Positions 3,190 through 61,100 of a stretch of DNA of 64,000 nt are shown here, one piece after another. Each line of letters begins with the position of its first letter. The stretch's first letter is position 1. Made by a program: the position numbers and the translations under genes. The notes beneath the pieces are model-generated. The model saw only the letters and a program-made list of their open reading frames with translations. It did no database searches and had not been told where the DNA came from. This DNA is from Branchiostoma floridae (Eukaryota; Chordata; Leptocardii; Amphioxiformes; Branchiostomatidae). The stretch covers positions 458,942 to 522,941 of the forward strand of contig NC_049996.1 in the NCBI RefSeq assembly GCF_000003815.2. The letters run 5' to 3'.

Positions 3190-22272
<19,083 letters not shown>

Positions 22273-24751: not shown

Positions 24752-26534
24752 AGTTATACAAGAAGAATGCAAGACGCTGTCTCTTTTACGTTTATTTCTT
24801 TGTATCATACATATAAACCTGTACCTTCTAGTATAGTATAGTGACAAACTCTACATGAGGACCAACATGCCATTGTGGCCATGTTTTTTGTTGTCCATAG
24901 ATGTCTGCCATTGACTAGTATATAGTAATACAGGCATATAAATTCAGAGTCTGGTAAGTCCAGATGTTTGTAACCTAACTGACGAAAGACACCGGAGGCT
25001 GTCTGAAATGACTGACCATTTCCAAATTTTGTAACTGTTACCTCGTAAATCCTGTGTATTTTGGCCACCTGTCTACAGTGGTCATTTTCTTCCAGTGCTA
25101 TGAGCAGTCATAGGTTTGACTGCACTGTGTCATGGTTTTAGATCAAACCCAATACATGGACATTTATTAGCTGTCAAAAACAAATTTTTACCCAATGGCT
25201 AAACCATTATGCCAAAAGGATCAGACCCGTGTCTTTTTGTCAGTTTGATGGCACTTGAACCCCACTGTTACACTGTTCCCCATTTCTTTTTGAGATTCGT
25301 CCTCGAATCTCCTGAGTTCAATTTCCTTGTGTGGCACATCTTTAGCCTGTTACTCACACCCCCTACGTATTACGCTAAATCAAGGAAGGCAATTACGCTA
25401 AATTTGGTCGCCTCGCTAGGATTTACGTAGATAAGATGGTTTTCCCTACGAATTACGGGAAATAAAATAGGCTTCCTACGCCTTACGTAAAAGAGCATGC
25501 AGACCCTCAGAGAAGGTGCATGCAGGCAGGCCCACAGAAGAACCCTCTCCATCATCCCAGGCTTGTTTTCCCAGCAAACATGACCTGGATGTGACTCAGG
25601 GGCAGGGACCTGTGGAATTCCTCAGTGGCAGGAGTGGCCAGCCAGGGCACTGGAGCAAGTCATCTTCATCAACGTTTAGTTTTCCTTTATCAGGCCACTC
25701 CAAGTTGGTTTCTTGTTTGGGGATTTTGTGCAGCAAATCTAATGGGCAAGGGGGACAATGCTAACCTTCATCAGGCCTTCCTATGGGGGTGCAGCAGGGC
25801 TTTAGCCAGCTCGAATTTTTTTTCCGTCAGCCAATTACAATCATCGTGAAAACCGCGAAAATTAATTAGAAGGACTGTACTGAGACCTTGAAAAACGGGT
25901 TTTAATGAGATTATCGTATGCGAAAGGGCGCCAACACATATTGTCAACAATCATAACAATAGCAAAACAAACAGTGTGTGGCTTTTACGGCCGTGGACGG
26001 CGTCCCCAAGCCGCCTGTAGCTTCCAACAAGGATTTTTGTCCTTCAAGGTTGACGGATTGGTTTTAAAATTTTTCCGTCAGACGCAGCAAATCGACGGAA
26101 AAATGGACGCTGGCTAGAACCCTGGGGTGCAGGGATAATAGAATTCTAGAAAACAAGTTGGGAAATTGGTCAGGGGAGTCAGTCCACGTTAGGATCATGT
26201 TTCCTCTCTCGAGTTGCTGACCAAATCATCTGGTAGCAAAACTCCCCAGGTAAATTATTCTCTCTATAACAGCCAGTGTAGTCTGGTAGAGACTAAGAAA
26301 ATGTAAAGATGAACAAAAATAACACACACAGACAACATGTTAACCTTTTAAAGACTGAGTAATATGGAAGCTAAATGCATTCAATGTATAGTACATACAT
26401 GTAACAGAAGATAGAACAAGAATTTTTGTGGTGGTTTTGAGTTTGTGGTCAAGAGGTCCCTGAAAAAAGCACCACATGTAAAGTTTTATGTTCACTATAT
26501 AATAAAATACACCTGTATACAGATACATACAGTA
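24752..26534. other. Intergenic, repeat-bearing; no gene seen
   Basis: Contains a block of tacgaattacg/ttacgtaaa-type strings at 25360-25500 (a related string is at 16125-16150) and a dispersed repeat at 25800-26125. A ggccacctgtctacagtgg string at about 25063 recurs near 33672. No coding exon recognised. Confidence 0.5.
25800..26125 (+). repeat. Dispersed repeat, inverted partner of 33285-33480
   Basis: Landmarks are aacaatcataaca, gacggcgtccccaagccgcc, then ggtTGACGGATTGGTTTTA, TTTTTCCGTCA and gctggctaga. The same landmarks occur in reverse complement at 33285-33480 inside LIPT2 intron 3. The two copies therefore flank the mariner/foldback insertion in inverted orientation about 7 kb apart. 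Confidence 0.65.
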
Positions 26535-26607
26535 CGAGGGGCATTCAATAAGTAATGTCCCTGACCCATTTCCCATAGCAGGAGATTAATGAAACTTGGC
26601 ACAGTTA

Positions 26608-26726
26608 TTAGTCTTTCTCTTCATAGGAACCACCCAGAGTTTTGCATTTCTCCCATCATTTGATGTAGCTCTGGACACCGTTCTTGTAGGACATCCCAGG
26701 TTGGTCCTCCGACAGATGCCTCAATA
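26608..26726 (-). pseudogene. Mariner transposase C-terminal remnant with in-frame stop
   Basis: On the minus strand the frame ends in a recognisable mariner C-terminus (WEKCKTLGGSYEEKD, stop at 26610-26608). An in-frame TGA at 26658-26656 stands just before the Trp, where related proteins have a basic residue. The catalytic domain that should precede this is absent. Non-functional. Confidence 0.75.
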
Positions 26727-26751
26727 CAGGTATATCCGAAGACCGTGGATT

Positions 26752-26931
26752 GATGAATTCCACAGCTGTGATATTCATCACTTAGATGATGAATTCCACA
26801 GCTGTGAAAATGATGAATTCCACAGCTGTGATATTCATCACTTAGATGATGAATTCCACAGCTGTGAAAATGATGAATTCCACAGCTGTGATATTCATCA
26901 CTTAGATGATGAGTTCCACAGCTATGGAATT
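26752..26931 (+). repeat. Outer-domain 60-bp tandem repeat, left arm, three copies
   Basis: Three head-to-tail copies with exact 60-base spacing (26752, 26812, 26872). Each contains the palindrome CACAGCTGTG twice and the paired motifs GATGAAT and ATTCATC. The third copy has small changes near its end. The short acidic ORF across it is a repeat artefact. Confidence 0.92.
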
Positions 26932-26936
26932 AATCA

Positions 26937-28152
26937 ATAGTGCTGTGGGATTCATCGATCTACTGATGAATCCAACGCCACTTCCGTCCCTAATACTGAC
27001 GATCGGCCGTGGGATTCATCGATCTACTGATGAACCCAACGCCACTTCTGTCCCTAATACTGGCGATCGGCCGTGGGATTCATCGATCTACTGATGAATC
27101 CAACGCCACTTCCGTCCCTTATACTGGCGATCGGCCGTGAGATTCATCGATCTACTGATGAATCCAACGCCACTTCCGCCCCTTATACTGGCGATCGGCC
27201 GTGGGATTCATCGATCTACTGATGAACCCAACGCCACTTCCGTCCCTTATACTGGCGATCGGCCGTGGGATTCATCGATCTACTGATGAACCCAACGCCA
27301 CTTCCATCTGTAATACTGGCGATCGGCCGTGGGATTCATCGATCTACTGATGAAACCAACGCCACTTCTGTCCCTAATACTGGCGATCGGCCGTGGGATT
27401 CATCGATCTACTGATGAACCCAACGCCACTTCTGTCCCTAATACTGGCGATCGGCCGTGAGATTCATCGATCTACTGATGAATCCAACGCCACTTCCGCC
27501 CCTTATACTGGCGATCGGCCGTGGGATTCATCGATCTACTGATGAACCCAACGCCACTTCCGTCCCTTATACTGGCGATCGGCCGTGGGATTCATCGATC
27601 TACTGATGAACCCAACGCCACTTCCGTCCCTTATACTGGCGATCGGCCGTGAGATTCATCGATCTACTGATGAACCCAACGCCACTTCCGTCCCTAATAC
27701 TGGCGATCGGCCGTGGGATTCATCGATCTACTGATGAATCCAACGCCACTTCCGTCCCTTATACTGGCGATCGGCCGTGAGATTCATCGATCTACTGATG
27801 AATCCAACGCCACTTCCGTCCCTAATACTGGCGATCGGCCGTGGGATTCATCGATCTACTGATGAATCCAACGCCACTTCCGTCCCTTATACTGGCGATC
27901 GGCCGTGAGATTCATCGATCTACTGATGAATCCAACGCCACTTCCGTCCCTAATACTGGCGATCGGCCGTGAGATTCATCGATCTACTGATGAATCCAAC
28001 GCCACTTCCGTCCCTAATACCGGCGATCGGCCGTGGGATTCATCGATCTACTGATGAATCCAACGCCACTTCCGTCCCTTATACTGGCGATCGGCCGTGG
28101 GATTCATCGATCTACTGATGAATCCAACGTCCATTCTGTCACTAATACTATA
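26937..28152 (+). repeat. 64-bp satellite array, left arm, about 19 monomers
   Basis: The anchor gatcggccgt recurs every 64 bases from 27001 to 28089 without a single indel. A hybrid first monomer at 26937 joins it to the 60-bp repeats, and the last monomer decays after 28120. Each monomer contains GATTCATC, 8 bases, GATGAATC (a hairpin) plus CGATCG and CGGCCG palindromes. Variation is limited to a few positions (gtggga/gtgaga, gaatcc/gaaccc, cctaat/ccttat). Repeated short ORFs such as the GFIDLLMN string are artefacts. Confidence 0.97.
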
Positions 28153-29043
28153 AAACCTTTGGTCGTCGGATTCATCTATGTAATGATAAAATCTACTGTC
28201 TATGGCAGTGCGGATGCTTCTACAGAGAGCTTTGTAATATTTCTTGTACTATTCTTTGTTGTGGGACTCACAAATTCTAGCACTTATCGACAGCTGAATG
28301 AGCAAGAAAAAAAGTGTACTGAGAACTTTGCATTTATTGGTCACATATTCATATTAGCACACATTTGAATAAAGTTACAATCAATCATCAAACCAATGAT
28401 CATCTGGAAATTCCTGCAAGGAAGATTTTTTTTGCTGATTTTGGAGTTTTGCGCTTCGAGGCATAAACATTTCAACTTGTAATTCAAATGAATTGCTAAC
28501 CATGTTGTGAGCTGTCCAGTACAGTATAATTGATATAAATCTTTATCTGCATGTTTTTTTTCTGTTTGATTACATGTATAACACACTATTTACATTGACT
28601 CCCGCAAAAAAGCCACTTGGCTGACACATGTAACAATGTCGCTGTTTCCTAGAATAATATTGATTGTTTATTTGCAAAATAATACTCCTGAGGGCCTGCA
28701 GGACCCACCTGTTACCAAGTAATTAATGGCTGGATAGCTTTTCCTAGGTAATAACATTCCAAACATTACCGTGGCGTGAACTAGCATTCCTGTGGACACA
28801 TTCCTGTACAAATGGAGCTGACAAATGCTAGAATTGCACACAATACTAATTAGTAATAGAGTTGCACTGCTCCTGTTGCGTGACCAATAACAAAAGTTGC
28901 ACAATATACACAAAACACCCTGCACTTACAGTCATCAATATGTAGTGATAATATCCACGGGCATTCCGTCGCTAATACTGACAATTGACTGTGGACTTTA
29001 TCAATATGTTGTGATGAAGTCGAACGCAGCGTAGAAAGAAAAA

Positions 29044-29147
29044 AATCACTCAAATCTTTAATACCACCCGCTACCGCAATGACTGATGGGATAGCTTGTG
29101 TTCCATTTTGTTCCTTTGTTTTCAGTCACATGCTGAAGATTTTTGTT
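29044..29147 (+). repeat. Left copy of a 104-bp inverted repeat within the spacer
   Basis: Runs from aaatcactcaaatctttaat to gaagatttttgttc and matches 30930-31033 in reverse complement with a few mismatches. Its inner end contains a separate perfect hairpin at 29125-29158 (GTCACATGCTGAA, 8-base loop, TTCAGCATGTGAC). Confidence 0.85.
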
Positions 29148-29318
29148 CAGCATGTGACATGGGGTGCACTGGAAGAGTAAATTCTTGCACTGGGAATTTT
29201 GGGCTAAAGTGTCATTAGTAGAAGTGACTTTTAAAGAAAAGTGTTCCATTTTTGCACATGGGTGATTTTGGAATAGTCTATTGTTGCATGGGGAGGGAGA
29301 TGGCTGAAATATGCTGTA

Positions 29319-29480
29319 CTGTAAATGCAGAAACGTTCTCGGTGGATTAAATGAACTTCGCGGTTTTCACGGCGGCCACTTCACTGCGAACTTAAAACCG
29401 CCGCGAACATTTTTCCATAACAGTAAGAGACTATAGTGCATGTTGCTACAGTGAAATAAAAAACACCGCAAAAAGTCCAT
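29319..29480 (-). repeat. Partial TACTGTAAATGC-family MITE, copy 3
   Basis: Begins tactgtaaatgcagaaacgt and has the ttcgcggttttcacggcggc and gaacttaaaaccgccgcgaa blocks of the family. It fades before a clear right terminus, close to the N gap. Confidence 0.6.
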
Positions 29481-29582
29481 GTTATCTGTTGATATGATAA
29501 ATTTTTCAGGCCATTCTTGAGCAGCATGTTGAGTAAAGTCTTTATTTGGCTCCCTATTATCAACAAAATTGTTTAAAGTTTT

Positions 29583-30009
29583 NNNNNNNNNNNNNNNNNN
29601 NNNNNNNNNNNNNNNNNNNNNNNNNNNNNNNNNNNNNNNNNNNNNNNNNNNNNNNNNNNNNNNNNNNNNNNNNNNNNNNNNNNNNNNNNNNNNNNNNNNN
29701 NNNNNNNNNNNNNNNNNNNNNNNNNNNNNNNNNNNNNNNNNNNNNNNNNNNNNNNNNNNNNNNNNNNNNNNNNNNNNNNNNNNNNNNNNNNNNNNNNNNN
29801 NNNNNNNNNNNNNNNNNNNNNNNNNNNNNNNNNNNNNNNNNNNNNNNNNNNNNNNNNNNNNNNNNNNNNNNNNNNNNNNNNNNNNNNNNNNNNNNNNNNN
29901 NNNNNNNNNNNNNNNNNNNNNNNNNNNNNNNNNNNNNNNNNNNNNNNNNNNNNNNNNNNNNNNNNNNNNNNNNNNNNNNNNNNNNNNNNNNNNNNNNNNN
30001 NNNNNNNNN
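29583..30009. other. Assembly gap, 427 N
   Basis: A run of 427 N. The non-round size suggests an estimated gap. It lies in the centre of a large inverted repeat, where misassembly is a real risk. Confidence 0.98.
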
Positions 30010-30929
30010 CAGTAAACTTTTGTAAGATTTTTTTTATATCGGAGGATCCTGTAATGCCTCTGTAAATTTGAGTTTGGAGTTATCATCCCAAATGTACTTA
30101 GTTGGTAATGGGTTTGTTGGGGCTTTAGCTTGTTTTACATAAGGTGAATAGTTAGTTGAGATAGAGCATCAATTAAACAGTAGTCTGTTGGTTTAGTATT
30201 GTTTGTGATTGATTGAAAAACAAAGGAGCATTGGTCAAAACAAGTCATAATCCCTTACCACCCAAGCCACAAAGCACAACATTGGGAAGCAGTGAAATTT
30301 TCTTGCATACAGTCTGTTGGTTTAGTATTGTTTGTGAGTGATTGAAAAACAAGCTTGGCCTTTTCTGGCTGGGAAAGTTCGTCTTGTCATTGAAGGGAAA
30401 CTTGAGAATTCTCACCTACCTGTATAGGCCCAATTTCTGACAAGAAAGACTTCAGACAGTGTAACGATCTCAATCGTTGAATTATTGAGAGAGTTTATTT
30501 TAGCAATAGAAGGGAGAGTTGAATCCAATGAGCTTTTATAAAACTTTAAAAGCTTTTATAAAAGCTCCTTGCTAGAAAAACCTCACGGCCCACTGAATAA
30601 TATCAACATACGTGTGGCTTCTTTGCTGCGTGGGACACTTTAGTGATCATGGGACCCCGGGACTAAATGGGCAGCCATAAGCATATCGTTAGTTTATTTA
30701 CGCATTTTGATCGCAAGGTATACTAGTGCCCAAAATTTTAATAGCATATAACGACAAGAATGGTGTCGCTTATATCTTTTCGATGATAAAACTGTCCTAA
30801 TTAGTCTACCATCGATATTTCAAAACAGGGCTAATCTGCTACACATATTGAATTCCTAATTTACCATATTGTTCGCTACTTTTGAGTAACATATGTCTGC
30901 ATATTAAGAGGGAATTTCGTTTGTGAACA

Positions 30930-31033
30930 AAAATCTTCAGCATGTGACTGAAAACAAAGGAACAAAATGGCACCCAAGCTATCCCATCAGTCATTGCGGT
31001 AGTGGGTGGTATTAAAGATTTGAGTGATTTTTA
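30930..31033 (-). repeat. Right copy of the 104-bp inverted repeat within the spacer
   Basis: Reverse complement of 29044-29147 with minor differences. Contains aatcttcagcatgtgactga and ttaaagatttgagtgatttt. Confidence 0.85.
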
Positions 31034-31186
31034 TGTATGTGTATGTAAGTTTTAAATTTTAGAAATGATTCCGGCCATGCAATTCATCAAGCCTCTGTTA
31101 AATCCATCCCTGTGGAGAGACTAAAAATTAAAAAAATTGATGACATAGAGATCATTAATTAACCTAAGTAGTAAAATCCAAGACTG

Positions 31187-32042
31187 TATCGATGAATCCC
31201 ACGGCCGATCGCCAGTATTAGGGACAGAAGTGGCGTTGGATTCATCAGTAGATCGATGAATCCCACGGCCGATCGCGAGGATTAGGGACGGAAGTGGCGT
31301 TGGATTCATCAGTAGATCGATGAATCCCACGGCCGATCGCCAGTATTAGGGACGGAAGTGGCGTTGGATTCATCAGTAGATCGATGAATCCCACGGCCGA
31401 TCGCCAGTATTAGGGACGGAAGTGGCGTTGGATTCATCAGTAGATCGATGAATCCCACGGCCGATCGCCAGTATTAGGGACGGAAGTGGCGTTGGATTCA
31501 TCAGTAGATCGATGAATCTCACGGCCGATCGCCAGTATAAGGGACGGAATTGCGCGGAAGTGGCGTTGGATTCATCAGTAGATCGATGAATCCCACGGCC
31601 GATCGCCAGGATAAGGGGCGGAAGTGGCGTTGGATTCATCAGTAGATCGATGAATCCCACGGCCGATCGCCAGTATAAGGGGCGGAAGTGGCGTTGGATT
31701 CATCAGTAGATCGATGAATCCCACGGCCGATCGCCAGTATAAGGGGCGGAAGTGGCGTTGGATTCATCAGTAGATCGATGAATCCCACGGCCGATCGCCA
31801 GTATTAGGGACGGAAGTGGCGTTGGATTCATCAGTAGATCGATGAATCTCACGGCCGATCGCCAGTATAAGGGGCGGAAGTGGCGTTGGATTCATCAGTA
31901 GATCGATGAATCCCACGGCCGATCGCCAGTATAAGGGACGGAAGTGGCGTTGGATTCATCAGTAGATCGATGAATCCCACGGCCGATCGCCAGTATAAGG
32001 GACGGAAGTGGCGTTGGATTCATCAGTAGATCGATGAATCTC
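31187..32042 (-). repeat. 64-bp satellite array, right arm (inverted), about 14 monomers
   Basis: Same monomer as the left array in opposite orientation. The anchor gatcgatgaat recurs at 31251, 31315, 31379, 31443, 31507, 31581 and every 64 bases to 32029. The only length change is a 10-base insertion in the unit beginning at 31507 (around ggaattgcgcgga). Sequence variants are those of the left arm. Confidence 0.97.
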
Positions 32043-32160
32043 ACAGCACTATTGATGATTCCACAGCTGTGGAATTCATCATCTGATGAATATCACAGCT
32101 GTGGAATTCATCATCTAAGTGATGAATATCACAGCTGTGGAATTCATCAATCCACGGTCT
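32043..32160 (-). repeat. Outer-domain repeat, right arm, shortened
   Basis: Reverse-complement copies of the 60-bp unit (CACAGCTGTGGAATTCATCA motifs) between the 64-bp array and the element end. The right arm has fewer and less regular copies than the left arm. Confidence 0.85.
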
Positions 32161-32180
32161 TCAGATATAGCTCCTCAATA

Positions 32181-32404
32181 ATGGCAGAAGAGGGACGACC
32201 AGGTCTGGGAGCTGTTTCCACAGACTTCCGACCTTGTTTGAATTCAGGATGCCAGCGTTTTACAAGGTCATATGATGGGGCGTCATCACCATAAGTTTTT
32301 TTCATTTCATCAAAAGTCCCCTTTGGTGTGCGTCCTTTCAAATACAAAAACCGGATCACTGCGCGACACTCAACTTGCTCCATTTCACACCTGGTCCATT
32401 TCAC
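32181..32404 (-). pseudogene. Mariner transposase N-terminal fragment (helix-turn-helix region)
   Basis: From 32404 the minus strand encodes about 75 residues typical of mariner N-termini: CRAVIRFLYLKGRTPKG, a YGDDAPSYDLVKRW helix, EFKQGRKSVE and APRPGRPSS. This is the DNA-binding half only. At the target duplication 32173-32180 it runs into the foldback element and stops in a short false tail. The catalytic domain is missing. An inner Met (MEQVE) fits the family start better than the first Met. Confidence 0.88.
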
Positions 32405-32931
32405 ACCTGACTCAGTTCAAACACCAGTAAATCAGTAACCACAATTATTTCAGAGCTGTTTTTTGCAACATAACCCATAGAGATATGACTCATTACACAT
32501 GCAAAATTTCATCTAGATCAGACAACTGGAAGTGGGTCAGGGACATTACTTATTGAATGCCCCTCGTAGGTAGCTACATAGCATGTCTGTCTCCAGGATC
32601 TGTCCTTCTATCCTGAGACCGAAATTTGCTTGTTGGGATGGACAAAATTCCACCATATCTGTCCCAAAAATCTGAACTTCAGATAACATGTTACATGAAA
32701 TTGATCAAAATATGTTTTCATCAGCCTAAAATGGAAGATTTTACAAGGAAAATTAACAACATTGGCTCCCAAAAAATGGGAGGGGCGAAAAAAATTCAAG
32801 CTGGAAACAGCCCTGGTACATAAATAGGCAATCTTCTATCTCATTGACACCCTTCTTCATGTTTTTCTTCACTATTAGTGTTAGGAACTGCTGAGCACAG
32901 AAAGTATATGGATCAAAAGCGTCCTCTTTTA

Positions 32932-38315: not shown

Positions 38316-41300
38316 ATGACATCAGAGAACGTTGTTATACGTGCGGCCCGTCCAGAGGACTGTGGAGAAATCCTCCGCATGATAAAGGTAGGGGAACATC
38401 GTTGAATCATGTCTTTGAAAATGAAACAGCTTCTTGTATTACAAAATGTTATCATTCCATTACTACACTCAGCACAAAAAGTTTGGAATATCAACTTCGG
38501 TTGATCATATTTCTGTTGTTTCTGCATCAATTTCAATATATTATATACCTATAGAAAGCTTGCATGATTTTCTTTCCAATGGTACCAAACTCATTATCAG
38601 TGTTAACTCATGGAACATACACTAGGCCTGCTAACGTGAGTGGGTCACGAAAAAAAAGTGCCCAAATTCCCCCGTTTTTGTTGAAAACTTTATCGTCCGG
38701 TTGTTATGGCCGCGGGTGACAATGATTCAATCAATCCGTTTTTCACCTAACGTTTGGTATACAGAACATCCAAGTGTCTTTTTAGCATATCTGAGTAGAG
38801 TATCTTAAGAGTGTAAATTCATGGAACGAGCACCAGGCCTGCTTACGTACAGGGGGTTCTAAAGATAAAGTGCCAAAATTACCCTACTAAAGTCAATCAC
38901 TCCATTCTGCTCATTTTCTTCTGTCGGTATTGACTTGTGAATGAAGGCAAGTTGAATAAACAGGACATGTCAATCAAAGCTACTGTTACTCTTTATTCAA
39001 GCAAAAAATCCGAACCATGGCAAGAGGTGGTCAATCGAGTGCTAGCCATAAGCCATAGGAAGGCTATTCCACCCTAAGACTGTACTCCAGCATTCAATGG
39101 TCCTTGCTCTGTGTGGACTGGTGTTGTAATCTTGCATTGACATTTAGTCCAATATTGAAAGGGTAGAATATTGCTACTGGATGGAGGATGGTGTCCCTAT
39201 ATCTCACCACATTGGAGTTGCCTGGAATGATGACGAGTCTTGTTTTTCCTATGGCGGTTATACCGCCCCACACCATGACGCTGCCTCCACCACCAAATGC
39301 CGAAAGTTACTCTTGACTTGTCAGCGTGCGGTTCTCCATGCCGCATCCGCGCTTTGATTCTGCCATCCAACTATCGAAAGGGCACATATACTCTACTCAA
39401 CCTTTATGTTCCGTATACCAAGTGTGAAGTGAAAAGAGGATTGATTGAAGCAGTGACACATGCGCCAATATCAACAGGACGATACAGTGTTGAACAGAAG
39501 TAGGGGAATTTGGGCACTTTTTTTCGTGACCCTGGTAAGCAGGCCTTGTGCTCGTTTTCTGTGTATAAAACCATGATAAGTTTGATACCATAGGAAAGAA
39601 AATCACACAAGCTTTCTATTGATATATAATATATTGAAATTGATCCATAGATAACGGAAATATGATATACCAAAGTTGATATTCCAAACTTTTTGTGCCG
39701 AGTGTAGTATACACCTTTCTCACGCGGCGGCCATGATAGATCTAAAACGAGTTCAATGAGGCAAACAAAAGACTATCCATCATAATTAGCAGTTCAACGA
39801 ATGATAGCCCATCAATTAGGAAAGCGACCAATAAGAGATTTGGCTGCATGTCCGTCAAATATTTGCATTACTAATGTTTTTATTTTGCATCTCTTAGGGG
39901 ACTATGGGGTCAGACTATGATACTCTAAATTGCTACATCTTTCGGTGCATAACACTAGTTATTATATTTATTATTTGATCTTATATTGTGAAAATTTGTG
40001 TGGTTTGTGGGAAATCTAAATGGCAGCTGATTTTAGAAATAAGTTTTGTCTGTTTGCCTCATTGACCTCGTCTTCGATCTATCATGGCCGCCGCGTGAGA
40101 AAGGTGTATATAATGCTGGTTCACCTTTATTCGCAGGGTAGCCCATATCCGTTGTATTTAAAAATAAATCATTTAGAGATTTCAAGTTGACTGACTGTGG
40201 TTCGAATTGCAATATTTCGAATACATCACAATTTGAAACCACTGCCCATCGACTTGATATCCCTAGATACTAAAATGTTGAATGCAACGGATATAGGTTA
40301 CCCCACAAATAAAGGTGAACCAGCGTTAGTTTTACTTAAACAGAAATCACTCAAGCAGAAAACAGTACGTCAATACAAAATGTAGTAGTCTTATCATTAG
40401 TGTCTCTTTAAACAATATCATATAGATAATTGTTATTCTAGTAAGTAAAATGACTGATAGTATTCTTTAACTGCAGGAGTTAGCAGTGTATGAACAGATG
40501 GCTGAAAAAGCTACCCTGACTGAAGAATGTAAGTACAGAATTTGTTAAAGCACATTTTGCAATCCCGTTGATTCTTTTCTTTCTTTCTGTGCACATGCCA
40601 ATATTACATTTGTATAAAAATCGATGTTTCTAGAGATTATCATCAATATGATTAAATCAACATGGTCAAAAGTAAAGTAGAAAGCATATCAAGACATGAT
40701 CAATTTACTGATAGTTTAAGAAGAAGACAATACAAGAAGATACTGTAAAGGCATTTAAGTTCACGGGGATTTAATTTCGCGGTAGCGGGAAATAGGACTT
40801 TTCGCGGTGGTTTTAATTTCGCGGTAGCACCATGCACTGTAGTATCTTAATGCCCTGGAAAAATGTTCGCGGTGGTTTTAAATTCGCGGTGAAATGGCCG
40901 CCGCGAAAACCGCGAATCTGAATCCAACGCGAACATTTATGCATTTACAGTAATACAAGAAGACAATCACTAGACATTGTTAACTTCATTTTTACATTGA
41001 GTTATCTATTGTTTCAGCATTGCGAGAAGATGCATTTGGAGACCATCCATACTACAGAGCGCTTGTAGCAGAGACGAGCTCAGGTTTAACAGAGGAGACC
41101 AGGCTGATTGGCTATGCCATGTACTACTTCTGCTACTGCCCATGGTTAGGGAGGGGCATTTATCTTGAGGACTTCTATGTGGAGCCTGCTTACAGAGGTA
41201 TTGTCTTAGACAATTCAGCATTGGACATACAGTCAAAGCTGGCCAAGGAGACTAATGGCTCGTTCTCATTTAAATGTCGAAATGCTGTCGCCTGACTTTA

Positions 41301-58156: not shown

Positions 58157-61100
58157 CTACTCTTCAATGAGTTGAACGCTTGTTGTTACTTTGATGACAG
58201 GACAGCGGACACTACGAGTGGCCCATGTTCGGTTGTGTGATACCTCCATCTTGAAACTGTCCCTCTGTCGACTTGAAGGGAGGATGGAGTCACAGATGTC
58301 GAGGCTTTCGTCCAGTTTCTCTCGGACAATGCGTAGGTTGGCATGAAGCTCTTCAATTTTCAACTCACCTGTACACAAAAATTGTACAATAATGTAGGTT
58401 TCGAATAGAACAAGAATCATTCGAGTCTACACTGCTAAGGCTTTACGACAGTTGTGTATAATCTCTAACAAAACTAAATACAGAGAGAGAAAGATAAATA
58501 AACATACACACTCAAGAACACACACAGAGAAAAAGAGAGAGAAATTGCACAATGTACAGAAACAACACTGTTACTGTAAATGCGTTCAAGTTTGCGGGGA
58601 TTTAATTTCGCGGTAACTGGAAAAATGACTTTTCGCGGTGGTTTTAGGTTCGCGGGAGCACCATGCACTGTAGTCTCTTACTGCCATGGAAAAATGTTCG
58701 CGGTGGTTTTGAGTTCGCGGTGAAGCAGCACCACGAAAACCACCGCGAAAGTTTGTTCATTTACAGTGCTTCGCTCCTTTGCGGATGAAGTAACAGAGAC
58801 AGACCTCTAACTTTCTTTCGGTTGTCTTACTTGGTTTGCTCTCTGTAGCCTCTGAGTTGTGTACCCCCAACATTGCTAAGAAGCGTCTCCACATGTGCTC
58901 GGCGAGGTCACGGTCATGGTCGACCTCTACGTCAGCGGAAATGGCGTCACAGATGATGGTCATGAGGAAGTTGACCAGGAGGATGAAGACGAATATCATG
59001 AAGGTGGAGAAGTAAATCGGCCCGAGGAGCGGATTGGTTTCCATCACGTGATCTGTGACGAACCTGTTCAAATGGAGAAATTCACTCAGTGACAATGTTG
59101 CAAATATTGGAGTTTTTGGTTTCAACTGCGCATCAAATGCATCATGGGTAATGTGTCAAAGTTGAAGGCCTCTTTGACATTAACAAAACGAGCTTGGACA
59201 TTAGAGTCAAGTTAGGTCTTTACCATTCATTGACTATTACCCACAATGCATTTCTCTGTGCATGCGCAGTTAGAACTATGAACATTTTCATTCTATGCTT
59301 GGTGTCCTTGATTTACATTTTAATTGCCCATAGCTTGATTATAAATTGCCATTGAAAAGATTTCTGCACTCATCTAGCACGCTTTTCGGTGAGCTATACA
59401 CACCACTGGAGATTATTTCAGTTTCACATTTGAGCCAAGATTCATTGTACTGCAAACAGTTGCGTTTGACATATGACGTCACGTGTAAGCTGCTCCATAC
59501 AATGGCGCAGTGATACTTAATGTATGATTCTGTGCCCTATCTTTCACTGACTTCTACTGATGTCGTTACAAGTTTACATATGAAACTTACGCCCCGAGCA
59601 TCATCTCGAAGAGAGCGAGCGTCGTGCGGTACAGGTCAGTGTAAGACTCCAGATGACACACAAAAATAAGGTGTCCTGACAAGAGAGATAACAACATCAG
59701 CCGTAAGTAACCACCATCTACAACCTGCATGCAATAATACACTATTTGGCTCGCTCCCTGAGAGCGTCGCCAAAAAGAGTGATTTTTCAGTGGCCCTTAA
59801 CTATAGAAATTACCATAGGTGAGGCTTTTTAACGTGCTCGAGCTCAATGTGTGGCTCTCCTAAAACACTGGACTTCCAGTTTTACGACCCATACGAAAAG
59901 ACGTCCCTAACCGAAGCTTGGTACTCACCTGAACTGATGAATGCCACAAAAGCGATACTAGCAACAACCAAGAACGACGTTAGTTCCTTCTTCATGATGC
60001 TTGGGAGAGCCAGAAGCTTGCTGATCGTCTGGCTGAAGCGGACGACGCGAATCAGTGCTATGGTGTTGAAGAAGACACCAGCGCCCAAGATGTGCTTGAA
60101 GACACTATCCCACCATGCAGCAGTTGACAGGTCCACAAAGTTGGCAAACCCAAGTTCACCTGTTAAGTGGAAGTGGCAAAATGTTTATTTTTCTCCTTCA
60201 AGTTATGGATAATGTATTGAGTATATAAGTATAAGAAAACTAAGTGTTAACTCAGGAGAAGAGAGACTGGAAGACCACCTCTTACATAGGCATCTTAAAG
60301 GTTGGATCTCACTGCACTTGGGATACCTGTGCGACACAGCGGGGTTCATTCACTGCGACACTGTTGTGCTATATTACGTAATACGTGAAAGTATAACTTA
60401 GAAGACAAAAAATATGCACAAAACGTAAGAAAATTCCTTCTTTATCTCTGAAAGTCGTTGAGTACTCTTTCTCCGCAGTGCCGCACCGGTGCCCCAGTGA
60501 GATGCCACCTGAAGAGACGCAGGAGGTTTTGGTTCAATTTTTCGGAAGAGAGCTTATTCCATGATGATGAAAGATGATGAAAGAAGCATGTAAGCAAGAT
60601 TTAAGCAACATTGCCATCTCGGTAAATACGTTGAGCCTATTGTGGAGCTTATGGAAAACCATAGTACTTCCATATGATGAAAGAAGCAAGATATAAGCAA
60701 GCTTTAAGCAACATTGCCATCTCGGTAAATACGGAGCCTACCATTGGTTTTAGACACCATGCCCAGTGTAGCCGATGCCACCGTGTATAGCTTGATGAAG
60801 ACAGAAATGATCATCACCGTTCCGATAAGGACGACACATTCGAGAATATTCCAGGGCGAGATGAAATATGTCCATCCCTGTTCTTTCCCCGACTTCATTG
60901 CCTTATAAAGCATAACGAAGAATAGAATAACGAAGACGATATGCAGAAGTAGATGTACATAGTCATTCCCACTTTCGTACTGAAACATTTTGAACGCTGT
61001 GATTGTTGATGTTGCCATGAGGTTCCCTATGTCGGGATGATCCACGGAAATCTTCACCACACTGAACTGCTTTAGGTTGGGGTTATAAAAGTTCATGTCA

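Follow-up and report, generated by a model that had tools for sequence, protein, structure and literature searches.

A stretch of 64,000 nucleotides from Branchiostoma floridae (contig NC_049996.1, positions 458,942 to 522,941; G000:C18:458942-522941 in the genome searched), called the window here, contains an element of 5447 bases, including 427 bases of N gap, at window positions 26727-32173. The element is very probably a foldback-type DNA transposon, non-autonomous and of the cut-and-paste kind. Its inverted arms are built of tandem subrepeats, it lies between short direct repeats inside a mariner copy, and the same ends recur at dispersed loci with target duplications (mostly 7 bp) and arms of variable length. 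An earlier note on this DNA had described a 5.4-kb insert between direct repeats within a mariner, whose inverted arms consist of tandem repeats of 60 and 64 bp, and had taken it for a foldback transposon; on these points the present analysis agrees with it.

Ends of the element and target-site duplication

The genome that was searched comprises 513 Mb in 431 contigs. A query with the left end of the element gave 72 matches, 40 of the 85 candidates were scored, and 20 stretches were retrieved for comparing copies. Target duplications were compared across eight paired elements with fixed termini, and a ninth pair (L017) was excluded from the count because its A end is truncated. It was found that seven of the eight pairs have the ends CAGGTATATCC (A) and GAGCTATATCT (B), the exception being L015 with TCGCTATATCT as its B end. 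The duplication is a perfect 7 bp in five pairs (the window element, L010, L011, L014 and L016), matches at 6 of 7 positions in the L012/L013 pair, measures 8 bp in L009 (8/8 positions) and is missing in L015. Crossed pairings of ends, used as a control (n=56), gave a duplication match of 4/7 at most. L022, a mini copy roughly 0.2 kb long, has an 8-bp duplication as judged by eye.

In the window the 8-mer CCTCAATA stands at 26719-26726 and again at 32173-32180. By itself this 8-mer is weak evidence, because it has five matches in the window against 2.12 expected, and at least five were reached in 7 of 100 shuffles. Read inward, the B end has G as its terminal base in 7/8 pairs. Comparing the copies with fixed termini gives strong evidence of the duplication, assigns position 32173 to the B end and puts the duplication at 7 bp. 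The letters of the copies make 7 bp (CTCAATA) the best reading, with 8 bp sometimes, in place of the 8-9 bp given in the earlier note. Insertion would proceed by a 7-bp, sometimes 8-bp, staggered cut, and a transposase supplied from elsewhere may recognise the two slightly different ends.

Host mariner and empty site

The reading frame of the mariner is open once the insert and one target copy are removed and the flanks are joined, and it encodes an HTH_48 domain (Pfam, E 1.5e-8). The joined flanks (200 bases) aligned end to end at 99-100% in all 40 copies scored, which were the best of 1009 candidates, and the genome contains no fewer than 40 near-identical copies of the host mariner. The insert must be younger than the mariner copy hosting it. 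With so many near-identical mariner copies, the empty site is a clear one for population studies.

The window copy has an N gap in its core, so its arms are joined across a gap; in L010, which contains no N, both arms lie within a single element of 5441 bp. Arrays may collapse or misjoin in assemblies, and with the core gap in mind it could be supposed that satellite arrays flank a rearranged locus by chance, without any transposition. This is highly improbable in view of the fixed ends, the matching duplications, the empty site and the finding that no 64-bp match listed falls outside these loci. From this combination we infer transposition of a foldback element. Two copies weigh against that reading, namely L015, with its altered B end and no target duplication, and L016, whose interior gave no match to the other cores despite its ends and 7-bp duplication. 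A further point against it is that no transposase match of the P, MULE or hAT type was placed closer than 50 kb to one of the 81 ends found in the genome, other superfamilies being outside the search.

Relatives elsewhere in the genome

A genome search with the end pattern, allowing at most 2 mismatches, found 81 places (49 forward and 32 reverse), and the reversed pattern used as control found 0. Sorting by hand placed 27 of them in the first family, to which the window element belongs, 49 in a second and 3 in a third, with 2 unplaced. The common ends were found at loci with different flanks. The relatives of the element fall into at least three families. One second-family copy, on C180, is 10.6 kb long and, as judged by eye, is flanked by a 7-bp duplication (CCAATAA).

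In the second foldback family (L028, L033, L034, L036-L041) the units measure 66 bp and the cores are long; a 206-bp tandem array lies beside N gaps, and the convergent end pairs lie at 10.6, 13.0, 13.3 and 13.6 kb. Ends of a third kind, whose dyads are of the CCGCG type, are seen at L052, L053 and G000:C19:17021701, where parts of two of the three arms were read. L018 (400-4062) holds a truncated first-family element, apparently within the array of a second-family element. L025 (C12) and L026 (C4), which are relatives at the B end, have about 180 bases of flank in common and are 97% alike over 420 bases including the start of the arm.

Arms and the 64-bp repeat

In the 25 longest inverted pairs the complementarity is 95-98%, and the countable units vary from 1 to 20 per A arm and from 8 to 21 per B arm. 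When the genome was queried with a dimer of the 64-bp unit, 29 candidates were found and all of them were scored, giving 187 matches. Every one of the matches listed lies, as judged by eye, within a locus carrying element ends, and 26 of 26 tested positions are at most 6.4 kb from an end; among these matches there was no 64-bp array outside the element, assembly gaps being outside view. The idea, raised in the earlier note, that a 64-bp satellite spreads through the genome is not borne out by the matches listed. That these matches keep to the element makes it possible to tell a repeat within a transposon from a satellite that a transposon carries.

Mean identity between units is 95.7% within arms, 95.8% between the arms of one element and 95.6% between elements; no homogenisation confined to the arms of single elements was seen. 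The B arms of L011 and L019 have a unit order in common (0/100 shuffles); other arm pairs mostly lack a shared order, with weak exceptions of the window A arm with those of L010 (0.03) and L020 (0.06). L019, on the unplaced contig C386, has a B-side flank nearly identical to that of L011 and six outer units in common with it, beyond which the two diverge; L019 has 11 units against 20 in L011, and their cores also differ. L019 is a second allele of L011 or an assembly variant. Unequal exchange could be the process by which the arm arrays grow and shrink.

A dyad in the arm units

To our knowledge, it is not settled why tandem repeats make up the arms of foldback elements. It was found that each 64-bp unit contains the inverted motifs GATGAATCCCAC and GATGAATCCAAC at a spacing of 8 bases. 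At up to 2 mismatches, the count of GATGAATYCCACRGC is 40 in the left arm, 32 in the right arm and 2 in the core, and 0 in 30 mononucleotide shuffles of each sequence. Unit consensuses assembled by hand for the three families all have inverted motifs at the 8-base spacing, with 11/12 (first), 12/13 (second) and 12/14 (third) matched positions. The second family has CCAC half-sites and zero CCGCG in all five arms read (CCAC counts by strand are 14+18 in L028, 12+11 in L033, 7+8 in L034, 21+26 in L040 and 12+16 in L018). The third family has CCGCG half-sites and zero CCAC in both arms read (9+10 in L052, 12+11 in L053). The first family is less symmetric, because in the A arm of the window copy CCAC occurs 5+13 times and the other half-site is mostly CCAAC. 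DNA hairpins of three units have z values of -3.35, -7.05 and -2.93. The building of the units on a dyad and the contrast of CCAC and CCGCG half-sites between families are new observations.

The related families retain the dyad with CCAC or CCGCG half-sites, and on the simplest reading each dyad would be bound by a dimeric protein, most likely the transposase. The joint change of both halves between families two and three would be as expected for the site of a dimeric protein, or for hairpin selection. It may even be that a single dyad, bound by transposase, makes up the arrays of the arms, and that families diverge by an arm-wide switch of the motif in both half-sites together (CCAC to CCGCG), the satellite-like arrays recording rounds of co-evolution between transposase and arm; this is a tentative proposal and on balance a doubtful one. 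Several points count against the binding-site reading. The dyads are imperfect, the first-family half-sites are unlike (CCCAC and CCAAC), which does not suit a strictly matched site, the third family is known from two arms only, and the motif shuffles preserve base content alone. Furthermore, array homogenisation or hairpin selection could suffice without any binding protein. As related families in one genome retain the dyad with letters that differ in both halves, the binding-site explanation is directly testable.

Transposase and superfamily

The cores of L010, L011 and L017 contain no frame longer than 204 aa, and the core frames submitted to Pfam gave no transposase match. Genome searches for P-, MULE- and hAT-type transposases, which ignored introns, gave 3, 27 and 33 matches respectively. 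With no transposase in the core frames and none near the ends, the window copy is taken to be non-autonomous. An autonomous partner was not found via the three transposase families or, by eye, among the second-family frames; such a copy may be missing from the genome or from its assembly.

FB of Drosophila and TU of sea urchin have inverted arms of tandem subrepeats. They are likened to the present element by structure, not by sequence, and differ in the duplication, which the earlier note gave as 8-9 bp for FB and TU against 7 bp here. Both are named as foldbacks in a paper on Tetris (PMC4079207). The earlier note took the element for a chordate-lineage member of their class; the chordate lineage is plausible, and membership of FB or TU is at most putative, no transposase being linked.

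The length of the duplication favours, by analogy, a P/Galileo-like enzyme over Mutator as candidate superfamily. A P-superfamily foldback like Galileo of Drosophila is quite possible, if somewhat short of probable. Galileo has 7-bp duplications, the length found here with the exceptions of L009, L012/L013 and L015, and long arms with internal tandem repeats, which within one copy vary in length independently (PMC3573991); its arm repeats hold secondary binding sites for the transposase (PMC3573991, PMC4079207). Two of the three P-type matches have open frames, of 767 and 678 aa, but the closest match is 577 kb from an end, the 3562 bases beside one match show no shared inverted ends and a single 2-mismatch match to an end motif, and a CA start is present at the A end only. 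In contrast to Galileo, the element has no linked transposase and its dyad units of 64 or 66 bp fill most of the arm; the likeness is one of description, not of sequence.

Membership of the Mutator (MULE/Phantom) foldback group, with a MULE transposase mobilising the element, is unlikely. Tm1 of root-knot nematodes, a Mutator/foldback element, resembles it in having composite arms of tandem subrepeats with outermost motifs unequal between the ends, and differs in its duplications, most of which are 9 bp, in its subrepeats of roughly 14 bp and in the putative transposase that some copies encode (PMC3169594). Tetris of Drosophila virilis also has repeat-bearing foldback arms, with no conserved frames and no autonomous copy found; its duplications are 8-10 bp, and it has 220-bp repeats that are tied to an emerging satellite, whereas here no 64-bp array was listed outside the element (PMC4079207). 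MULE-type matches are present in the genome, but the closest is 50.8 kb from an end, and a Mutator element would make duplications of 8-10 bp, whereas those found include none of 9 or 10 bp. The 8 bp of a hAT element was found in one of the eight pairs, and by eye in L022, and the nearest hAT-type match is 118 kb from an end. A literature search pairing foldback with amphioxus or Branchiostoma floridae found none on amphioxus; Repbase was outside this search and may hold a name for the element.

Core and interruptions

The features of the window copy are collected in Table 1. Nine core sequences from eight loci are 97.9-99.8% identical to the L010 core over their aligned parts, which measure 1400 to 3039 bases each, and a core piece of 171 bases matches at 98-100% at nine first-family loci. 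In the window copy 891 bases separate the inner inverted repeat from the A array, and 155 bases separate it from the B array; the repeat matches at 81-86% at ten other places, five of which fall in second-family ends or at most 10 kb from them. Nested insertions break the cores of L009, L015 and L013.

Table 1. Features of the foldback element and its host mariner (window positions)
Feature	Position	Strand	Basis
Host mariner copy, TA at both ends, inverted ends CGAGGGGCATTCAATAAG..., HTH_48-bearing transposase remnant, interrupted by the insert	26533..32568	-	joined flanks, Pfam, genome matches
Left target-site duplication CTCAATA	26720..26726	+	comparison of copies, joined flanks
A terminus CAGGTATATCC	26727..26737	+	comparison of copies
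Outer 60-bp repeats of A arm, 2.9 copies	26751..26923	+	Tandem Repeats Finder
64-bp array of A arm, 18.8 copies	26945..28149	+	Tandem Repeats Finder
Core, aligned parts 99.0% like the gap-free L010 core, no transposase frame recognised	28150..31187	.	core comparison, Pfam
66-bp-type unit, 79-92% like second-family units in L018	28932..29021	.	sequence comparison
Inner 109-bp inverted repeat, left copy	29041..29149	+	repeat comparison
N gap inside core	29583..30009	.	sequence
Inner 109-bp inverted repeat, right copy	30924..31032	-	repeat comparison
64-bp array of B arm, 13.2 copies	31188..32044	-	Tandem Repeats Finder
Outer 36-bp repeats of B arm	32062..32149	-	Tandem Repeats Finder
B terminus GAGCTATATCT, read inward	32163..32173	-	comparison of copies
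Right target-site duplication CTCAATA	32174..32180	+	comparison of copies, joined flanks

On C5 (L012, L029-L031, L013; G000:C5:22433426-22475947) a first-family core is split by 31 kb with ADAMTS-like exons, without loss of bases. No target duplication was seen at the junction of the 31-kb segment, and the outer duplication of the element matches at 6/7 positions. A composite element of 42.5 kb was considered for this pair; it looks like an ordinary element with a core interrupted by 31 kb, and movement as a unit is unsupported.

Capture of a LINE by the core was also considered. A core frame of 149 aa presumably resembles the linker between endonuclease and reverse transcriptase of a LINE; Pfam gave for this frame a sub-cut-off ApoC-I match only (E 0.003), and a tblastn search of three frames (two with reverse-transcriptase domains, the third from L024 with its domain content unchecked) against three cores gave no hit, for which reasons neither the resemblance nor the capture is claimed. 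Window positions 29317-29478, within the core, belong to a dispersed repeat, of which the window contains four diverged copies at 14328-14486, 15418-15515, 40795-40952 and 58627-58763 (73-84%).

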